Assembly (NCBI RefSeq): GCF_900108095.1
Contig: NZ_FNWL01000001.1
Span: forward strand, 1,240,001 to 1,304,000
DNA length: 64,000 nt
Source of the DNA: Natronorubrum sediminis
GTDB taxonomy: Archaea > Halobacteriota > Halobacteria > Halobacteriales > Natrialbaceae
Direction: 5' to 3'
Below the pieces are notes generated by a model that was not told the origin of the DNA, did not search any database, and saw only the letters and a list, made by a program, of their open reading frames with translations. Below are positions 3,602 through 59,191 of this stretch, one piece after another; the first letter of the stretch is position 1, and the number at the start of each line of letters is the position of its first letter. The position numbers were made by a program, and so were the translations under genes.

Positions 3602-5323
3602 ATGACAGAAAATCCAGACGTTATCGTGATCGGCGCAGGCGGCGACGGACCGGCACTCGCGTGGCGACTCGGCGACCTCGGTATCGACACGCTCGTGCTC
3701 GAGGCGGGGCCGTGGCACGGCAACGAACAGTGGGAGAACCCACACGAAGCGGCGGGCGGGACCGAGAGCAGTGATCCGAACGATTTGAGCGGCGAGTTGC
3801 TCGACGAGCAGTTCGATCTGCGCGAAAACGCGACGAACGACTCCAATGGCGGGCGATTCCGATTCGGCCCTGCGAACCGCGACCGGCCGGAGTGGGATCG
3901 TTCGACGGCGGACCCGATGTATATCTCTCAGATCGCGGGCGTCGGCGGAACGACGTTGCACTACTTCGGGAATCACCCGCGGGCGTATCCCTACGCCTTC
4001 GAGGAGCAAGATCACTGGCCAATCGACTACGAAGAACTGGTGCCGTACTACCAGCAAAACGAGGACATCTGCGACGTGCACCCCGCCCCGACGACGGCCA
4101 AAGAGCGGGTCTTCTACGAGGGGGCAGCAAACGCTGGCCTCGAGTTGATCGATCAGCTAAATGTCGTCGACGCTGGCTATCGCCCACAGCCGAATGCAGT
4201 CACGCCGCCGGACGAAACCATGCAGGATCCGGACTACGACGGGCCGTTCACCTATCCCGACGTCGAGGGAGACACCCTCGCGGGCGACCACTACCAGGGT
4301 GCGCCGACGCCACTCGAGGCACCCGTCTCGGAAAAGTCTCGAAAATCGAGCAACGTGAGCTACGTCCCGCGGGCGCTCGAGACCGGCAACGTGACGATTC
4401 GGCCCAACACGTTCGTCACGAACGTCACGACCGATTCGGCGGGGTGGGCTGGCGACCCCGAGGCGACCGGCGTCGAGTACCGGGATACGTGGACTGGCGA
4501 AACCGGCGAGATCGAAGCCGACGTGGTCGTGATGGCAGCAGGCTGTATCGAGACGCCGCGTCTGTGGCTCAACGCCGACCTGCCGGACAACGGAAAGGTC
4601 GGGACGGGCCTGACGACGCACTGGTTCGACTTCGTCACCGGCGTCTTCGACGAGGAGACGCTCGAGGAGGTCACCGGCCAGCGAACGATCGACCCATTCG
4701 TCGGCCACAACGCAGCCGCGCGCTACGACGAACCGGGTGTCGGCTGTTTCGAGATGGTCGGCGGGACGCCGGGCATCGCGAGCTTCCAGAACTACGGGTT
4801 CAGTCGGGCAGGGTACGCCTTCGACGTCGACGTGGACGCAGACGCGCCGTGGGACAGCCGCGGTTGGGTCACCGGCGAAGACCTCAAAGCGCGAATGGCC
4901 GACTATCGGCGGTCACTGTCGATTCTAATTATCACGGACGATCTGCCGCGCGAAGACAACGGCGTCAGCGTCGACGAGGATGCGGCCGACGAGCACGGAC
5001 CGGTCGCCGACGTGACGTGGGAGCCACATCCGGACGACGACGAGAAACGCGACCAACTCGCAGAAACCGCGGCGGAACTCCTGCAATCCGCCGGCGCGAG
5101 TCACGTTCACCGGGCAGACGCACCACCGCTCTTGCTCCACCTACAGAGTTCGATGCGGATGGGCGAAGTCGTCGACGAGAACTGCGAGGCGTACGACGTC
5201 GACCGACTCTTCGTCGGCGACCACAGCGCCATGGCCAACGGCCTCGGTGGCCCGAATCCGACGAACACGGGACAGGCGCTGGCGCTCCGAACGGCGGAGC
5301 AAATCGAATCACTGTACTTCTGA
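3602..5323 (+). CDS. GMC-family FAD oxidoreductase
   Basis: A 573-aa flavoprotein of the glucose-methanol-choline family, predicted to oxidise an alcohol or sugar. The FAD-binding beta-alpha-beta unit is at residues 6-37 (VIVIGAGGDGPALAWRLGDL, with LVLEAG). A second FAD segment is near GVGGTTLHYFGNHPRAYP (about 105), and MAAGCIETPRLWL is at about 309. The C-terminal signature VGDHSAMANGLGGPNPTNTG (about 537-556) carries the active-site region. It has no signal peptide, consistent with hitchhiking through Tat with the preceding subunit. The two genes form an operon. Electron acceptor and substrate are unknown. Confidence 0.88.
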   Translation: MTENPDVIVIGAGGDGPALAWRLGDLGIDTLVLEAGPWHGNEQWENPHEAAGGTESSDPNDLSGELLDEQFDLRENATNDSNGGRFRFGPANRDRPEWDRSTADPMYISQIAGVGGTTLHYFGNHPRAYPYAFEEQDHWPIDYEELVPYYQQNEDICDVHPAPTTAKERVFYEGAANAGLELIDQLNVVDAGYRPQPNAVTPPDETMQDPDYDGPFTYPDVEGDTLAGDHYQGAPTPLEAPVSEKSRKSSNVSYVPRALETGNVTIRPNTFVTNVTTDSAGWAGDPEATGVEYRDTWTGETGEIEADVVVMAAGCIETPRLWLNADLPDNGKVGTGLTTHWFDFVTGVFDEETLEEVTGQRTIDPFVGHNAAARYDEPGVGCFEMVGGTPGIASFQNYGFSRAGYAFDVDVDADAPWDSRGWVTGEDLKARMADYRRSLSILIITDDLPREDNGVSVDEDAADEHGPVADVTWEPHPDDDEKRDQLAETAAELLQSAGASHVHRADAPPLLLHLQSSMRMGEVVDENCEAYDVDRLFVGDHSAMANGLGGPNPTNTGQALALRTAEQIESLYF

Positions 5324-20819: not shown

Positions 20820-20926
20820 GGGCCCTTAGCTCAGTCTGGTTAGAGCGCTCGGCTCATAACGCGATCGGACCTGGTTCGGTTGTGTGGGATACCGAGTGGT
20901 CGATGGTTCGAATCCGTCAGGGCCCA
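20820..20926 (+). tRNA. Elongator tRNA-Met (CAT) with an intron
   Basis: The exons form a 75-nt cloverleaf: acceptor GGGCCCT/AGGGCCC, discriminator A, anticodon stem CTCGG/CCGAG and loop CTCATAA with anticodon CAT at 20855-20857. The loop is interrupted after position 37 by an intron of about 32 nt (20859-20890, with one base of ambiguity because both borders are A). Haloarchaeal elongator tRNA-Met genes are known to carry an intron at this place; the one recalled from Haloferax is longer. A splicing endonuclease is expected elsewhere in the genome. Confidence 0.93.
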
Positions 20927-36599: not shown

Positions 36600-38438
36600 C
36601 TAGCCATCAGTATCCCAGACATCAGCCAGCGGGCTCGAGGAAGACGAACTCGACGAAGATCCTCGCGAGCGTTGATAGCGCGAGCGCTCTCGTGAGGAGT
36701 CCGTCGTCTCGGTCTGTGTCCCGCGGCCGGTCGCGCCGTGTTGGTCGGCGAGTGCGCTGGTTGGCTGGAACGACGGTAGATCCGGCTCACCCATTCGGGT
36801 GACTTGCGCTTCGAACCAGTCGGGCATATCCGTTCGGGCCCGCTCGAAGAGATCGAGCAGACTCGAGTCCGCGAGGTAGGTCGCGCCGTGGTCGTCGGGG
36901 GCGCGAACGACGCGACCACAGCCCTGGATGACCGTGCGGAGGGCAGTTCGGTAGTACCAGGCCCACTGGCCCTCCTCGAGTCGGTGGGCGACTCGAGAGT
37001 CGCCGGTGTTGAGGAACGGGGCTTTACACAGTACCTGCCAGCGACAGAGGTCGCCCTTGAGGTCGAGCGCTTCCTCCATCTTGACCGAGAGGAAGACGTC
37101 GGGGTCGTCGCTGGCTTTCCAGGCGTCGAGGGCGGCGTCGCGGCCGTCGCGGTCGTGGGTGCGGACGCGGTCGCCGACGCCGAAATCGGAGAGCATGTCG
37201 GCGAGTCGCTCCTGAATGTCGTAGGAGTGGGCGTGAATCAACCCCTTCTCGTCGGGGTGGTGTTGCATGAGCCGAACGATCGTGCGCGCGATCTTCGGCG
37301 TCGTCTCGTCGCGGTGCTCGTAGGTCATCTTCCCCTGTGTCACGTCGTACAGCGGCCGGTTCTCGACAGGGAAGGTGTGTTCGACGTCGACCAGCGCGAC
37401 ATCGTCCGGATCGAGTCCGACTTGCCGACAGAACGCCTCCTTGTTGAGAATCGTCGCCGAGAGCAGCGCGAACTTGTTGCCCCGATCCCAGACGGTGTGT
37501 CTGAGGTACTTCTCGGGGCTCATCGGCTTGATCGTGAGCGGGCCGCCGGCGGGGTCGTCGTCCTCGTCTCGCTCGTCCGCGCGAGCCCTCGAGGGTTCGG
37601 ATTGATCGACGAGCCACGTCGTCGGACTCTGTGGGTCGCGATAGTCCGAGACGAACCAGTCGAGTTCGCCGATGAGTTCCTGCAGGCGGTCGCGTTCGCG
37701 GACCTCGCCGGGCGAGAGCGAGTCCTGTCCGAGTAAGTCGTCTTTCCGGCGGCCACAGGTCTGGGCGAGGTTCTCGGCGTAGCGAACGGCTCGCTCGAGG
37801 GAGTCGATCTCGGGAACGCGTAGGTCGTCCCAGAAGGGGACCGTTCGCGGGCCGAGTTGGATCGTCGCGTACATTTCGGCCCACTCGGCGAGGCCGTGGG
37901 CTTCGTCGACGACGACGACGTCCCGTTTGCGAAAGACCTCGCTACCGGCGGTTTGCATGAAGTACGCGAGCGTCATCGCCGCGATGGAGCGATTCGACGC
38001 GATTGCGCGGTCGGAGAAGTACGGACAGCGGTGTTTGACCGAACAGTCGTAGCCGCGTTCGCGAACGCAGGGGGCCTGATTGACGGGGGTGTTGCGCTCT
38101 TCCGGGAGGATACAGGAGTAGTTCGACTTCCCGCGGATGACGTTGAGGTCGGCCAGCAAGTCGTCGGCCGCCACGTCGTCGAGTTGGGAGACCTGGGGCG
38201 TCGTGTAGTACGCACCCGTCGGATCGCTCGGGTCGGCGTCGTCGACCCGGCGTGCACAGCCGGCGACGGCGCGGGCGAGCAGGGACTTGCCACTCCCCGT
38301 CGGCGCGCGAACCAAGACGACGTCGTTGCCGGACGCGAACGCGTCGCGAATGTCCCGCAGGGCCTGCTCCTGGGCACCGCGATAGCTGGGGGCGGGGAAC
38401 GCCTCGAAGATCCGCTCGGGATTCACCGTTCGATGCAC
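36600..38438 (-). CDS. XPD/DinG-like Fe-S DNA helicase
   Basis: A 612-aa superfamily 2 helicase of the Rad3/XPD/DinG type. Walker A is RAPTGSGKSLLA (about 43-54). Four cysteines of an Fe-S domain follow (YSCILPEERN, APCVRERGYDC and HRCPYF, about 106-141). The DEAH box is VVVDEAHGLAEWAEM (about 174), with LSATILNKEAF (about 313), and the last motif is VIQGCGRVVRAPDDHG (about 515). A disordered Ser-rich tail closes it. It is likely to unwind DNA 5' to 3' in repair; the exact subgroup is uncertain. Haloarchaea usually carry several such paralogues. Confidence 0.9.
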   Translation of the reverse strand: MHRTVNPERIFEAFPAPSYRGAQEQALRDIRDAFASGNDVVLVRAPTGSGKSLLARAVAGCARRVDDADPSDPTGAYYTTPQVSQLDDVAADDLLADLNVIRGKSNYSCILPEERNTPVNQAPCVRERGYDCSVKHRCPYFSDRAIASNRSIAAMTLAYFMQTAGSEVFRKRDVVVVDEAHGLAEWAEMYATIQLGPRTVPFWDDLRVPEIDSLERAVRYAENLAQTCGRRKDDLLGQDSLSPGEVRERDRLQELIGELDWFVSDYRDPQSPTTWLVDQSEPSRARADERDEDDDPAGGPLTIKPMSPEKYLRHTVWDRGNKFALLSATILNKEAFCRQVGLDPDDVALVDVEHTFPVENRPLYDVTQGKMTYEHRDETTPKIARTIVRLMQHHPDEKGLIHAHSYDIQERLADMLSDFGVGDRVRTHDRDGRDAALDAWKASDDPDVFLSVKMEEALDLKGDLCRWQVLCKAPFLNTGDSRVAHRLEEGQWAWYYRTALRTVIQGCGRVVRAPDDHGATYLADSSLLDLFERARTDMPDWFEAQVTRMGEPDLPSFQPTSALADQHGATGRGTQTETTDSSRERSRYQRSRGSSSSSSSSSPLADVWDTDG

Positions 38439-38670
38439 GGGGTGGCCACACCCTAAAGGCTGCGAACCGTTGCTCGTCGTGCAGTTTCTCCCTCCTACAC
38501 TCGCCCGCAGGTGGGGACTCGAGACATGATCGAGTGGGTGACTCGGCCGCGAACGGACACCCTACCGCGACAGTGGACTCGAGTGTGCGCGGGTAGGCTG
38601 GGACTATCACCCGGACGTCGGCCGTAACCGAACGATTACAAAGACGGATCCGGCCAACGAATGCGAGTAC
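38439..38670. other. Intergenic region upstream of the tRNA-like gene
   Basis: No convincing gene. AACGATTACAAAG at 38631-38643 lies about 35 bp before the tRNA-like sequence and could be its TATA-type promoter box. Confidence 0.35.
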
Positions 38671-38760
38671 GGAAGGGTCGCTCAGCGGAAAGAGCATCGC
38701 GGTGCCATCCGGCCCGCGGCGGCCATTGTGCCACGTGGCGTTCAAATCCCACCCCTTCCG
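38671..38760 (+). tRNA. Non-canonical tRNA-like gene, possible tRNA pseudogene
   Basis: A 90-nt segment with a perfect 7-bp acceptor (GGAAGGG with CCCTTCC), discriminator G and a perfect D-stem (GCTC/GAGC). A T-arm is disturbed by one extra base: GTGG-C-GTTCAAAT-CCCAC would be a perfect GTGGG/CCCAC arm without the C at 38739. The anticodon stem TCGCG/CGCGG encloses 13 bases rather than 7; read as a tRNA the triplet after U33 is GCC (Gly). A 3-bp variable arm GGC/GCC follows, as in class II tRNAs. It could be a decaying tRNA, a virus-derived tRNA, a six-base-intron tRNA or a tRNA-like RNA. Identity is not assigned. Confidence 0.5.
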
Positions 38761-38763
38761 CTT

Positions 38764-38780
38764 GCGGCAGCGACTGCCGC
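38764..38780 (+). terminator. Hairpin after the tRNA-like gene
   Basis: GCGGCAG-CGA-CTGCCGC, a perfect 7-bp stem with three-base loop, begins three bases after the tRNA-like 3' end. It may define the 3' end or protect it; no T-run follows. Confidence 0.35.
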
Positions 38781-39027: not shown

Positions 39028-39267
39028 TCAGTCGATCACTAATTGCGACGTCTCCGCGTCGACCTGTTCGAGCCGAGCAACGTCGTCAGCGGTCGGCTCG
39101 TCGGGAAGCTCCTCGAGACAGGGATAACACAGCAGGTGCTCCGTCCCGTCTGCGAGTTCGAGCGTGATCGCGGTGCCCTCCGCGCCGTCGCCGAACGTCC
39201 AGACGTTGGCGATGCCGCCGGCGACAGAAACCGTCCGTCCGCAGCCGTCACAGGAGTCCCGTGCCAT
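39028..39267 (-). CDS. Small zinc-ribbon protein
   Basis: A 79-aa acidic protein with two Cys pairs, DSCDGCGRTV (about 4-13) and LLCYPCLEELPDEP (about 46-59), forming one zinc ribbon around a beta-hairpin (ANVWTFGDGAEGTAITLELA). It looks like a family of small haloarchaeal zinc proteins of unknown role. ATG 39267 (MARDSCDGCG) is chosen over an upstream in-frame start that would add 29 residues without character. Confidence 0.7.
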   Translation of the reverse strand: MARDSCDGCGRTVSVAGGIANVWTFGDGAEGTAITLELADGTEHLLCYPCLEELPDEPTADDVARLEQVDAETSQLVID

Positions 39268-57427: not shown

Positions 57428-59191
57428 TCAGTCGTCGGACGGAGCGACCGACCCTTCAGCCGCGCTCGCCGACGGTTCCTCCGCGAAGGGGTACCAGGAT
57501 TGCTTCGCGTCGGCCATGTACGGTGCCTCGAAATCGGTCTCTTCGGGTTCGCAGAACTCAATGAGCGCCTCGGTGCCGACCGACTCGACCCACTGGCGGA
57601 ACGTCTGTCCATCACTTCTGTGGGCTGCAAACGCCTCCAACAGATTGCGGATCGCGCCGGGTGCTTCGTCCGCCGGCACGCGCTGTTGGATCCACTCGAC
57701 GAACGACGGGTTCTCGCCGACGCCGCCGCCAACGCCGATGTCGAATGCCTCGACCATCTGGCCGTCCTTCCGGGCGCGCATTCCCTGCAGGCCGATATCG
57801 GCCGTCATCGCCTGCCCGCAGTCGGCGGTACACCCGGAGTAGTGCATCTTGATCTTGCCCACGTCCTCGGGCAAGTCGACGTTCGCGTTGAGCCAGCGCA
57901 GCATTCGCGCCATCCGACCCTTCGTTTCCGTAAGCGCGATCGAACAGAACTCGGTGCCCGTACAGGCCATCGCCCCGCGCTCGAAGGGGCTCGGTTCGGG
58001 CGGGTACGAAGCGAGGAGCGGGTCCGCGAGCAGGGACTCGAGATCGTCGTCGTGCACGTCGACGATAACCGGGTTCTGGCGGCGGGTAAGACGGAGTTCG
58101 CCGGAGCCGTACTCGTCGGCGAGGTCGGCGAGGGCGACGGCGTCCTCGGCGGGCAATCGGCCGACGGGAACGCTCAGCCCGACGTAGTTGAGGCTGTCCT
58201 GTTTCTGGTCGTAGACGCCGACGTGGTCGTGTTTGCCCTCGGTCGTCGAACCGGCGTTGTAGGTGTACTCCTCGCGGAAGTCCTCGCCCGCAGTGTGCAT
58301 CTCGAGGTCGACGTACTCTTCTTGGAGCGTCTCGCGAATTTTCTCCATTCCCCAGTCGTCGGCGAAAAATCGGGTCCGATTCTTCGAACGGTTCTGTCGA
58401 CCGCCGTAGTCGTGGTAGAGTTGGACGAATCCTCGGCCGACCTCGAAGGCGTTCTCGGGGAGAACGAAGACGTCGAGTGGCGTCGCAGCACGGGGCTGTC
58501 GGCCGCCGAGGCCGCCGCCGATGCGCACGTTGAAGCCCTTGACCGTCTCTCCGTTGATCTCCTTTCTGGCCGGCTCGAAGCCGATATCGTTGAGCGAATC
58601 CTGCGCGCAGCCGGATTTCGTCCCAGTCACGCTGATGTTGAACTTCCGGGGCATGTTCGCGAGCGCGTCGTCACCGCGAAGGTCCTCCTCGAAGCGCTCG
58701 AGCAGCGGGCCGGAGTCGACGTACTCCTCGACTTTGCCGTGGAGGGCCGAGCCCGAGATGTTACGCATCGTATCGCCGCCCGCCGACCGGGAGTGGACGC
58801 CCTCGGCCTCGAGTTGCTCCCAGATTTCCGGCACGTCCTCGAGTTTGAGCCAGTGCAGTTGGACGGACTGTCGGGTCGTGAGGTCGATCCAGCCGTTCCC
58901 GAACTCGGGGTTTTCGACGGGGCCGGTGGCGTACTCGCCGGCAACTTCGCCGATGGCTCGGAGCTGTCCCGGCTCCAAGATACCACTGGCGTTCGTCAGT
59001 CGCATCATGAAGTACGACTCCTGTCCGCTGCGCTGGTGGAAGAGTCCCCAGAATTTGAACCGGGTGAACCACGTCTCGCGTTCGTCTTCCGGAATCGCCT
59101 CGTAGCCGCCGTTTTCCGCGAACTCGAGGATGTGTTCGCGAACCTCGTCGCCGTAGCAGTCGTCTTTTTGCTCTTCTTTCTTATGGACCAT
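57428..59191 (-). CDS. nirA: Assimilatory ferredoxin-nitrite reductase (siroheme, 4Fe-4S)
   Basis: A 587-aa enzyme reducing nitrite to ammonium. Two ferredoxin-like half domains are followed by the siroheme/4Fe-4S motifs ACTGTEFCSIALTETKGR (about 395-412, C-x5-C) and KMHYSGCTADCGQAMTADIG (about 434-453, C-x3-C). NGWIDLTTRQSVQLHWLKLE (about 98-117) is a further family block. Sulfite reductase is the alternative, but the neighbouring nitrate transporter and reductase decide for nitrite. ATG 59191 (MVHKKEEQKDD) overlaps the end of a 26-codon leader ORF. Confidence 0.93.
   Translation of the reverse strand: MVHKKEEQKDDCYGDEVREHILEFAENGGYEAIPEDERETWFTRFKFWGLFHQRSGQESYFMMRLTNASGILEPGQLRAIGEVAGEYATGPVENPEFGNGWIDLTTRQSVQLHWLKLEDVPEIWEQLEAEGVHSRSAGGDTMRNISGSALHGKVEEYVDSGPLLERFEEDLRGDDALANMPRKFNISVTGTKSGCAQDSLNDIGFEPARKEINGETVKGFNVRIGGGLGGRQPRAATPLDVFVLPENAFEVGRGFVQLYHDYGGRQNRSKNRTRFFADDWGMEKIRETLQEEYVDLEMHTAGEDFREEYTYNAGSTTEGKHDHVGVYDQKQDSLNYVGLSVPVGRLPAEDAVALADLADEYGSGELRLTRRQNPVIVDVHDDDLESLLADPLLASYPPEPSPFERGAMACTGTEFCSIALTETKGRMARMLRWLNANVDLPEDVGKIKMHYSGCTADCGQAMTADIGLQGMRARKDGQMVEAFDIGVGGGVGENPSFVEWIQQRVPADEAPGAIRNLLEAFAAHRSDGQTFRQWVESVGTEALIEFCEPEETDFEAPYMADAKQSWYPFAEEPSASAAEGSVAPSDD

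Follow-up and report, generated by a model that had tools for sequence, protein, structure and literature searches.

A haloarchaeal tRNA-like RNA gene with a plain hairpin in the place of the anticodon arm

Background

In the tRNA-like domain of bacterial tmRNA the upper half of a tRNA is kept and a helix replaces the anticodon arm; small RNAs of the mascRNA type are non-decoding and tRNA-like, and are produced by the tRNA-processing enzymes. When the literature was searched for tRNA-like or anticodon-less RNAs of haloarchaea, the t-element was the only one found. This sequence lies upstream of the 5S rRNA, and both RNase P and tRNase Z act on it (PMC4326828); in Haloferax, such t-elements are real processing signals (PMC4326828, PMC4946936). 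The locus described here lies in a 64,000 nt stretch of the Natronorubrum sediminis genome (contig NZ_FNWL01000001.1, positions 1,240,001 to 1,304,000), referred to as the window, in which a tRNA-like gene of unusual form had been predicted from the sequence alone. Neither Rfam 15 nor the literature that was searched yielded a counterpart to it.

Structure of the RNA gene

The gene has the sequence GGAAGGGTCGCTCAGCGGAAAGAGCATCGCGGTGCCATCCGGCCCGCGGCGGCCATTGTGCCACGTGGCGTTCAAATCCCACCCCTTCCG. The original prediction of a tRNA-like gene of 90 nt is borne out, as is the start it gave at 38671, but its end, 38780, was placed 20 bases too far downstream. The component parts are as follows.

38636 to 38642, plus strand: TATA-like box TTACAAA, a putative promoter, recognised from the alignment and the positional A/T profile
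38671 to 38760, plus strand: whole tRNA-like RNA gene, 90 nt
38671 to 38677, plus strand: 5' strand of the acceptor stem, GGAAGGG, pairing with 38753 to 38759; invariant
38680 to 38695, plus strand: D arm, GCUC-AGCGGAAA-GAGC, with the equivalents of G18 and G19 retained
38697 to 38719, plus strand: hairpin in the place of the anticodon arm, UCGCGG-(U)-GCC-AUCC-GGC-CCGCGG, lacking a 7 nt loop; from the fold and compensatory changes
38721 to 38732, plus strand: variable arm, GGC-CAUUGU-GCC; from the fold and covariation
38735 to 38752, plus strand: T arm, GUGG-C-G UUCAAAU C-CCAC, with the extra C, at 38739, bulged; unchanged across all 30 aligned copies
38753 to 38759, plus strand: 3' strand of the acceptor stem, CCCUUCC
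38760, plus strand: discriminator, here G and elsewhere in the family either G or A; the gene does not encode CCA

The RNA combines a 7 bp acceptor stem with canonical D and T loops. As had been predicted, both the acceptor stem (GGAAGGG/CCCUUCC, 7 of 7 bp) and the D stem (GCUC/GAGC, 4 of 4 bp) are perfect, a variable arm is present as a 3 bp GGC/GCC helix, the T arm carries an extra C, and an AT-rich box stands at the proper distance upstream, approximately 32 bases from the gene. An unbulged 5 bp T stem is not found in this RNA, nor is a 7 nt anticodon loop on a 5 bp stem with U33. The anticodon loop had been described as having 13 bases, which holds if a 5 bp stem is assumed, but four further pairs close it into a 9 bp hairpin with a single bulged U and a 4 nt tip, AUCC. 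The cloverleaf has a folding energy of -41.2 kcal/mol, as against -41.6 kcal/mol for the best fold of the RNA, the z-score of the fold being -2.27 when this RNA is taken alone.

Run on the window, ARAGORN did not list positions 38671 to 38760; the gene also falls under the gathering cut-off of the Rfam tRNA model (RF00005), with a cmscan up to E=5 returning nothing, and is absent from the matches of a whole-genome Rfam scan to E=10, in which 45 ordinary tRNAs of the same genome lie above the cut-off. Some relatives from other families exceed the RF00005 cut-off, at 40-48 bits. Gene finders judge tRNAs by the anticodon, and so omit or misname genes of this kind; hence an RNA conserved in around half of the haloarchaeal genera sampled has apparently escaped listing. 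Elsewhere in the window, a 107 nt tRNA that probably contains an intron (20820 to 20926) is found by Rfam and missed by ARAGORN.

Conservation and covariation

Strong BLAST matches were present in 31 of the 37 genomes of the family, as a single copy in each. Across 30 aligned copies, the acceptor stem and the T arm, including its extra C, are invariant and the D arm is nearly so. T54-T55-C56, A58 and the D-loop GG are retained. In 30 of 30 relatives 99.3% of the structural cells were paired, with covariation exceeding that of all 500 shuffles, and five pairs of the anticodon-position arm had changed on both sides. Random substitutions in the stems of sister strains had been named in the original prediction as a finding that would refute it; the opposite was seen, the changes being compensatory. 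The conserved stretch comprises the promoter-like box, the RNA from G1 onwards and two to three bases past the discriminator, after which conservation falls to 0.39-0.45. At the site of the box the relatives have a conserved GATTACAAATACG, and the AT-richest 7-mer lies between -36 and -34, mostly at -36, in most relatives of the window clade.

Two covariance models, an initial one and then a broader one, were used to define the wider family, with the threshold set above most serine tRNAs (51-56 bits), which are the nearest ordinary relatives by model score. Relatives were detected in 191 of 392 Halobacteriales genomes, a count that is slightly generous in taking in at least one of a second tRNA-like group (e.g. 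G134). These genomes represent 47 of 95 genera, and none has more than three relatives. Outside the Halobacteriales, model matches in other families of the phylum (52-62 bits, up to three per genome) were taken to be class II tRNAs on the basis of their overlap in score with the serine tRNAs. Hosts named by a pattern scan include Natrialba, Natrinema, Natronococcus, Natronorubrum, Haladaptatus, Halorussus, Haloarcula, Halorientalis, Haloferax, Halobellus, Halogranum and Halegenticoccus, among others; several genomes, such as those of Halegenticoccus, Halobium and Halorientalis persicus, contain both of two types of the gene, in two or three copies altogether. A single GTDB-type genus, g28, includes carriers and non-carriers alike.

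The second tRNA-like group was observed in the Haloferacaceae (L083 1008-1092, L086 1001-1089 and L246-L252). Its members have a GAAAGGG or GAACGGG acceptor, an ordinary 5 bp T stem and an anticodon arm with a 5 nt loop; one genome has four copies with common flanks, and the copy in L083 adjoins a tRNA-Gly.

Amongst 84 diverse members of the main family, in an alignment that leans towards the structure through having been fitted to the model, 97.3% of cells pair, and there are 163 double-change cells, where shuffles give 41 and slid controls 2 to 11. In these 84 sequences every one of the six anticodon-arm pairs has changes on both sides, as do two pairs of the variable arm and one of the T stem; the second T-stem pair switches jointly between U-A (62 of 140 sequences) and C-G (78 of 140). 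All 140 distinct sequences have the extra T-stem base, in the form GUGG-C-G in the core Natrialbaceae-type clade and GYG-U-GG elsewhere, and it is a hallmark of the family. The T half of L101-L220 was fixed by the search pattern, so that its invariance there is partly the result of selection by the search; the same constancy is also seen in the BLAST-found and model-found sets.

The acceptor stem never varies among family members. By contrast, the arm in the anticodon position ranges from 14 to approximately 60 nt, the shortest being CCACC-UUCG-GGUGG; the discriminator is G or A, both occurring within Haloferax, and the variable-arm helix is missing from the Haloferax copies. The pattern of change suggests that what selection maintains is the tRNA body, together with the presence, rather than the content, of a helix in the place of the anticodon arm. 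Arms of Haloarcula and Halorientalis (e.g. L106, L118 and L119) retain AUGCCAGA, a possible clade-specific binding site. In a Natrialbaceae metagenome-assembled genome, one copy (L169, around 4257-4450 on the minus strand) has an insert of approximately 60 nt in the variable arm, which has its own hairpin.

Genomic sites and mobility

Two genes flank the core Natrialbaceae-type copies, and are positioned in the window as follows.

36600 to 38438, minus strand: divergent superfamily-2 helicase (Helicase_C_2, DEAD_2), its synteny being kept across Natrialbaceae-type loci
39028 to 39264, minus strand: small CxxC protein, DUF7561

There are 46 helicase-linked loci. At a further 42, from several families, the copy lies downstream of a gene that we take, from reading its protein sequence, to be sdhA and that ends the succinate dehydrogenase operon, and this site may be the ancestral one; other copies are found among what are presumably surface-glycan genes. 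Hence the neighbours differ by clade (helicase, sdhA or glycan genes), and none was found to be a linked partner gene. At the syntenic site in G005, a genome of the same genus, there is a decayed remnant (L242/L243, G005:C10 117705-118821) in which neither the D arm nor the acceptor is intact any longer, whilst the promoter-like box is still conserved; the gene can therefore be lost, and is dispensable there.

The sdhA-linked copies, which share the strand of sdhA and follow it at distances ranging from tens to a few hundred bases, bear on the likeliest of the alternatives: that the tRNA shape draws in the two processing enzymes, RNase P and tRNase Z, to excise a neighbouring transcript, such as the end of the sdhA message, in the manner in which t-elements act in Haloferax (PMC4326828, PMC4946936). 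However, conservation is at background just past the discriminator, and in Natrialbaceae-type loci the gene upstream is divergent, and no more than a short leader can separate the TATA-like box from the RNA, leaving nothing upstream to be released. Furthermore, over the region directly before the 5S genes of its own genome, where a t-element would be expected, the family model scores no more than 4.2 bits, which rules out identity with the 5S t-element; a role as a processing signal is therefore unlikely.

The T-half pattern had no exact match in IMG/VR, a Haladaptatus-type relative had none in phage records, and the window copy had none among plasmids, where a Haloferax copy matched a single sequence, pHOS100 of Halorientalis sp. 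IM1011. There, the gene (58771-58860; L241 6001-6090) has an HTH/DUF1616 pair on one side and orc1/cdc6 on the other. The T half is present in additional, partial copies downstream of two family members (L071 4160-4345 and L114 7040-7155), within long inverted repeats, GGGATTCGAA...TTCGAATCCC; no integrase was recognised next to these partial copies when the genes were judged by eye. Such partial copies, together with the plasmid-borne one, might suggest that the locus is a DNA target, a tRNA-like attachment site retained by integrating elements. Yet no recurrent integrase was seen among the neighbour clusters whose representatives were examined, the promoter-like box is conserved, and the anticodon, variable and T arms covary in a way that shows selection on RNA structure, making this a decidedly improbable explanation.

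Decoding potential and integrity

A decoding tRNA, with an intron or an unusual anticodon within the arm, might be envisaged because GCC or GUC comes directly after a U33-like U in the majority of Natrialbaceae-type copies (either being a candidate anticodon in the window clade), and because AUGCCAGA has been kept in the arms of Haloarcula and Halorientalis. The alternation of GCC and GUC is, however, explained by a compensatory change of C-G to U-A within the helix; the arm varies freely in length, and 45 ordinary tRNAs are already present in the genome. In other clades the arm ends in a 4 nt UUCG tip with no space for an intron, which rules out an intron or split anticodon, and a 5 bp stem with a 7-base loop and U33 can be formed in just five of the 140 distinct sequences, which are scattered and dissimilar, as chance would produce. 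The relatives thus share no consistent anticodon loop. We hence regard decoding as very improbable.

Least probable of all is a decaying or horizontally acquired tRNA gene, possibly from a virus as originally suggested, since, whilst the RNA breaks the cloverleaf rules, one relative is on plasmid pHOS100 and a decayed copy exists in G005, the window gene is intact, single-copy and syntenic, with a core invariant across the family and compensatory changes in its stems, and no match was found for the T-half pattern in IMG/VR or for a Haladaptatus-type relative in phage records. Unconstrained stem substitutions, as expected of a pseudogene, were not seen, the one true pseudogene being that in G005; judged from these alignments, the window gene is not decaying.

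Proposed role

The other half of the original suggestion, an RNA that only imitates tRNA, agrees with what was found: the body of a tRNA is conserved, in the absence of an anticodon loop or conserved anticodon. As the anticodon arm is a plain hairpin, free to change in both length and sequence, the RNA could not decode, and we consider it very likely to be a non-decoding tRNA mimic. Selection on the body and on the presence of the helix fits a mimic read by a protein that touches the acceptor and elbow, and the window gene is probably a freestanding RNA of this type; that such a protein mediates its action is favoured to the same, lesser degree. The invariant acceptor stem argues for a partner that reads sequence, whilst the variable discriminator speaks against one strict synthetase.

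In the proposed mechanism, the RNA would be transcribed from its own TATA box, trimmed by RNase P to a 5' end at G1 and by tRNase Z after the discriminator, and would then receive CCA. Retained contacts between the D and T loops would fold it into an L shape, of which the acceptor stem, D arm and T arm with its bulged base could be read by a protein that handles this half of tRNA; to such a protein the RNA would be a carrier that does not decode, or else a competitor or decoy. If the RNA does engage an acceptor- and elbow-reading protein, a role as an aminoacyl carrier is conceivable but doubtful, and one as a decoy or regulator slightly more so. Equally tentative is the fullest form of the proposal, namely that dedicated, anticodon-free tRNAs without a decoding role make up a new family of RNAs, inherited from the ancestor of much of the Halobacteriales, and are charged through the acceptor stem to serve as amino-acid donors or sensors outside the ribosome.

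If expressed and processed, this would be a natural tRNA without an anticodon, offering a clean way to single out those tRNA-handling proteins that read the acceptor and elbow half alone, and possibly a way into off-ribosome amino-acid chemistry. Haloferax species are carriers, and hence the RNA could be studied in tractable cells.

Comparison with known systems

The t-element of Haloferax volcanii shares with the RNA described here a haloarchaeal tRNA-like fold without a decoding role. However, it stands directly before the 5S rRNA and is part of its precursor, whereas the window gene has its own promoter-like box and no adjacent rRNA, none having been found in the window. RNAs of the mascRNA type differ in being eukaryotic and freed from a long host transcript, and no homology with them is claimed. 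Whilst the replacement of the anticodon arm by a helix recalls tmRNA, the haloarchaeal RNA has no tag reading frame, is only around 80-117 nt long, and has an A3-U70 pair in place of the G3-U70 pair used for alanine charging. The class II serine tRNAs of archaea have a similar variable arm (GGCC..GGCC plus UC), and G73 as in the window clade; in other clades, however, the discriminator is A, and the Haloferax copies lack the variable-arm helix, both of which weaken the case for a serine-tRNA paralogue of strict seryl identity. Relative to serine tRNA, this is a tRNA-like RNA with a different D arm, an extra base in the T stem and no anticodon loop.
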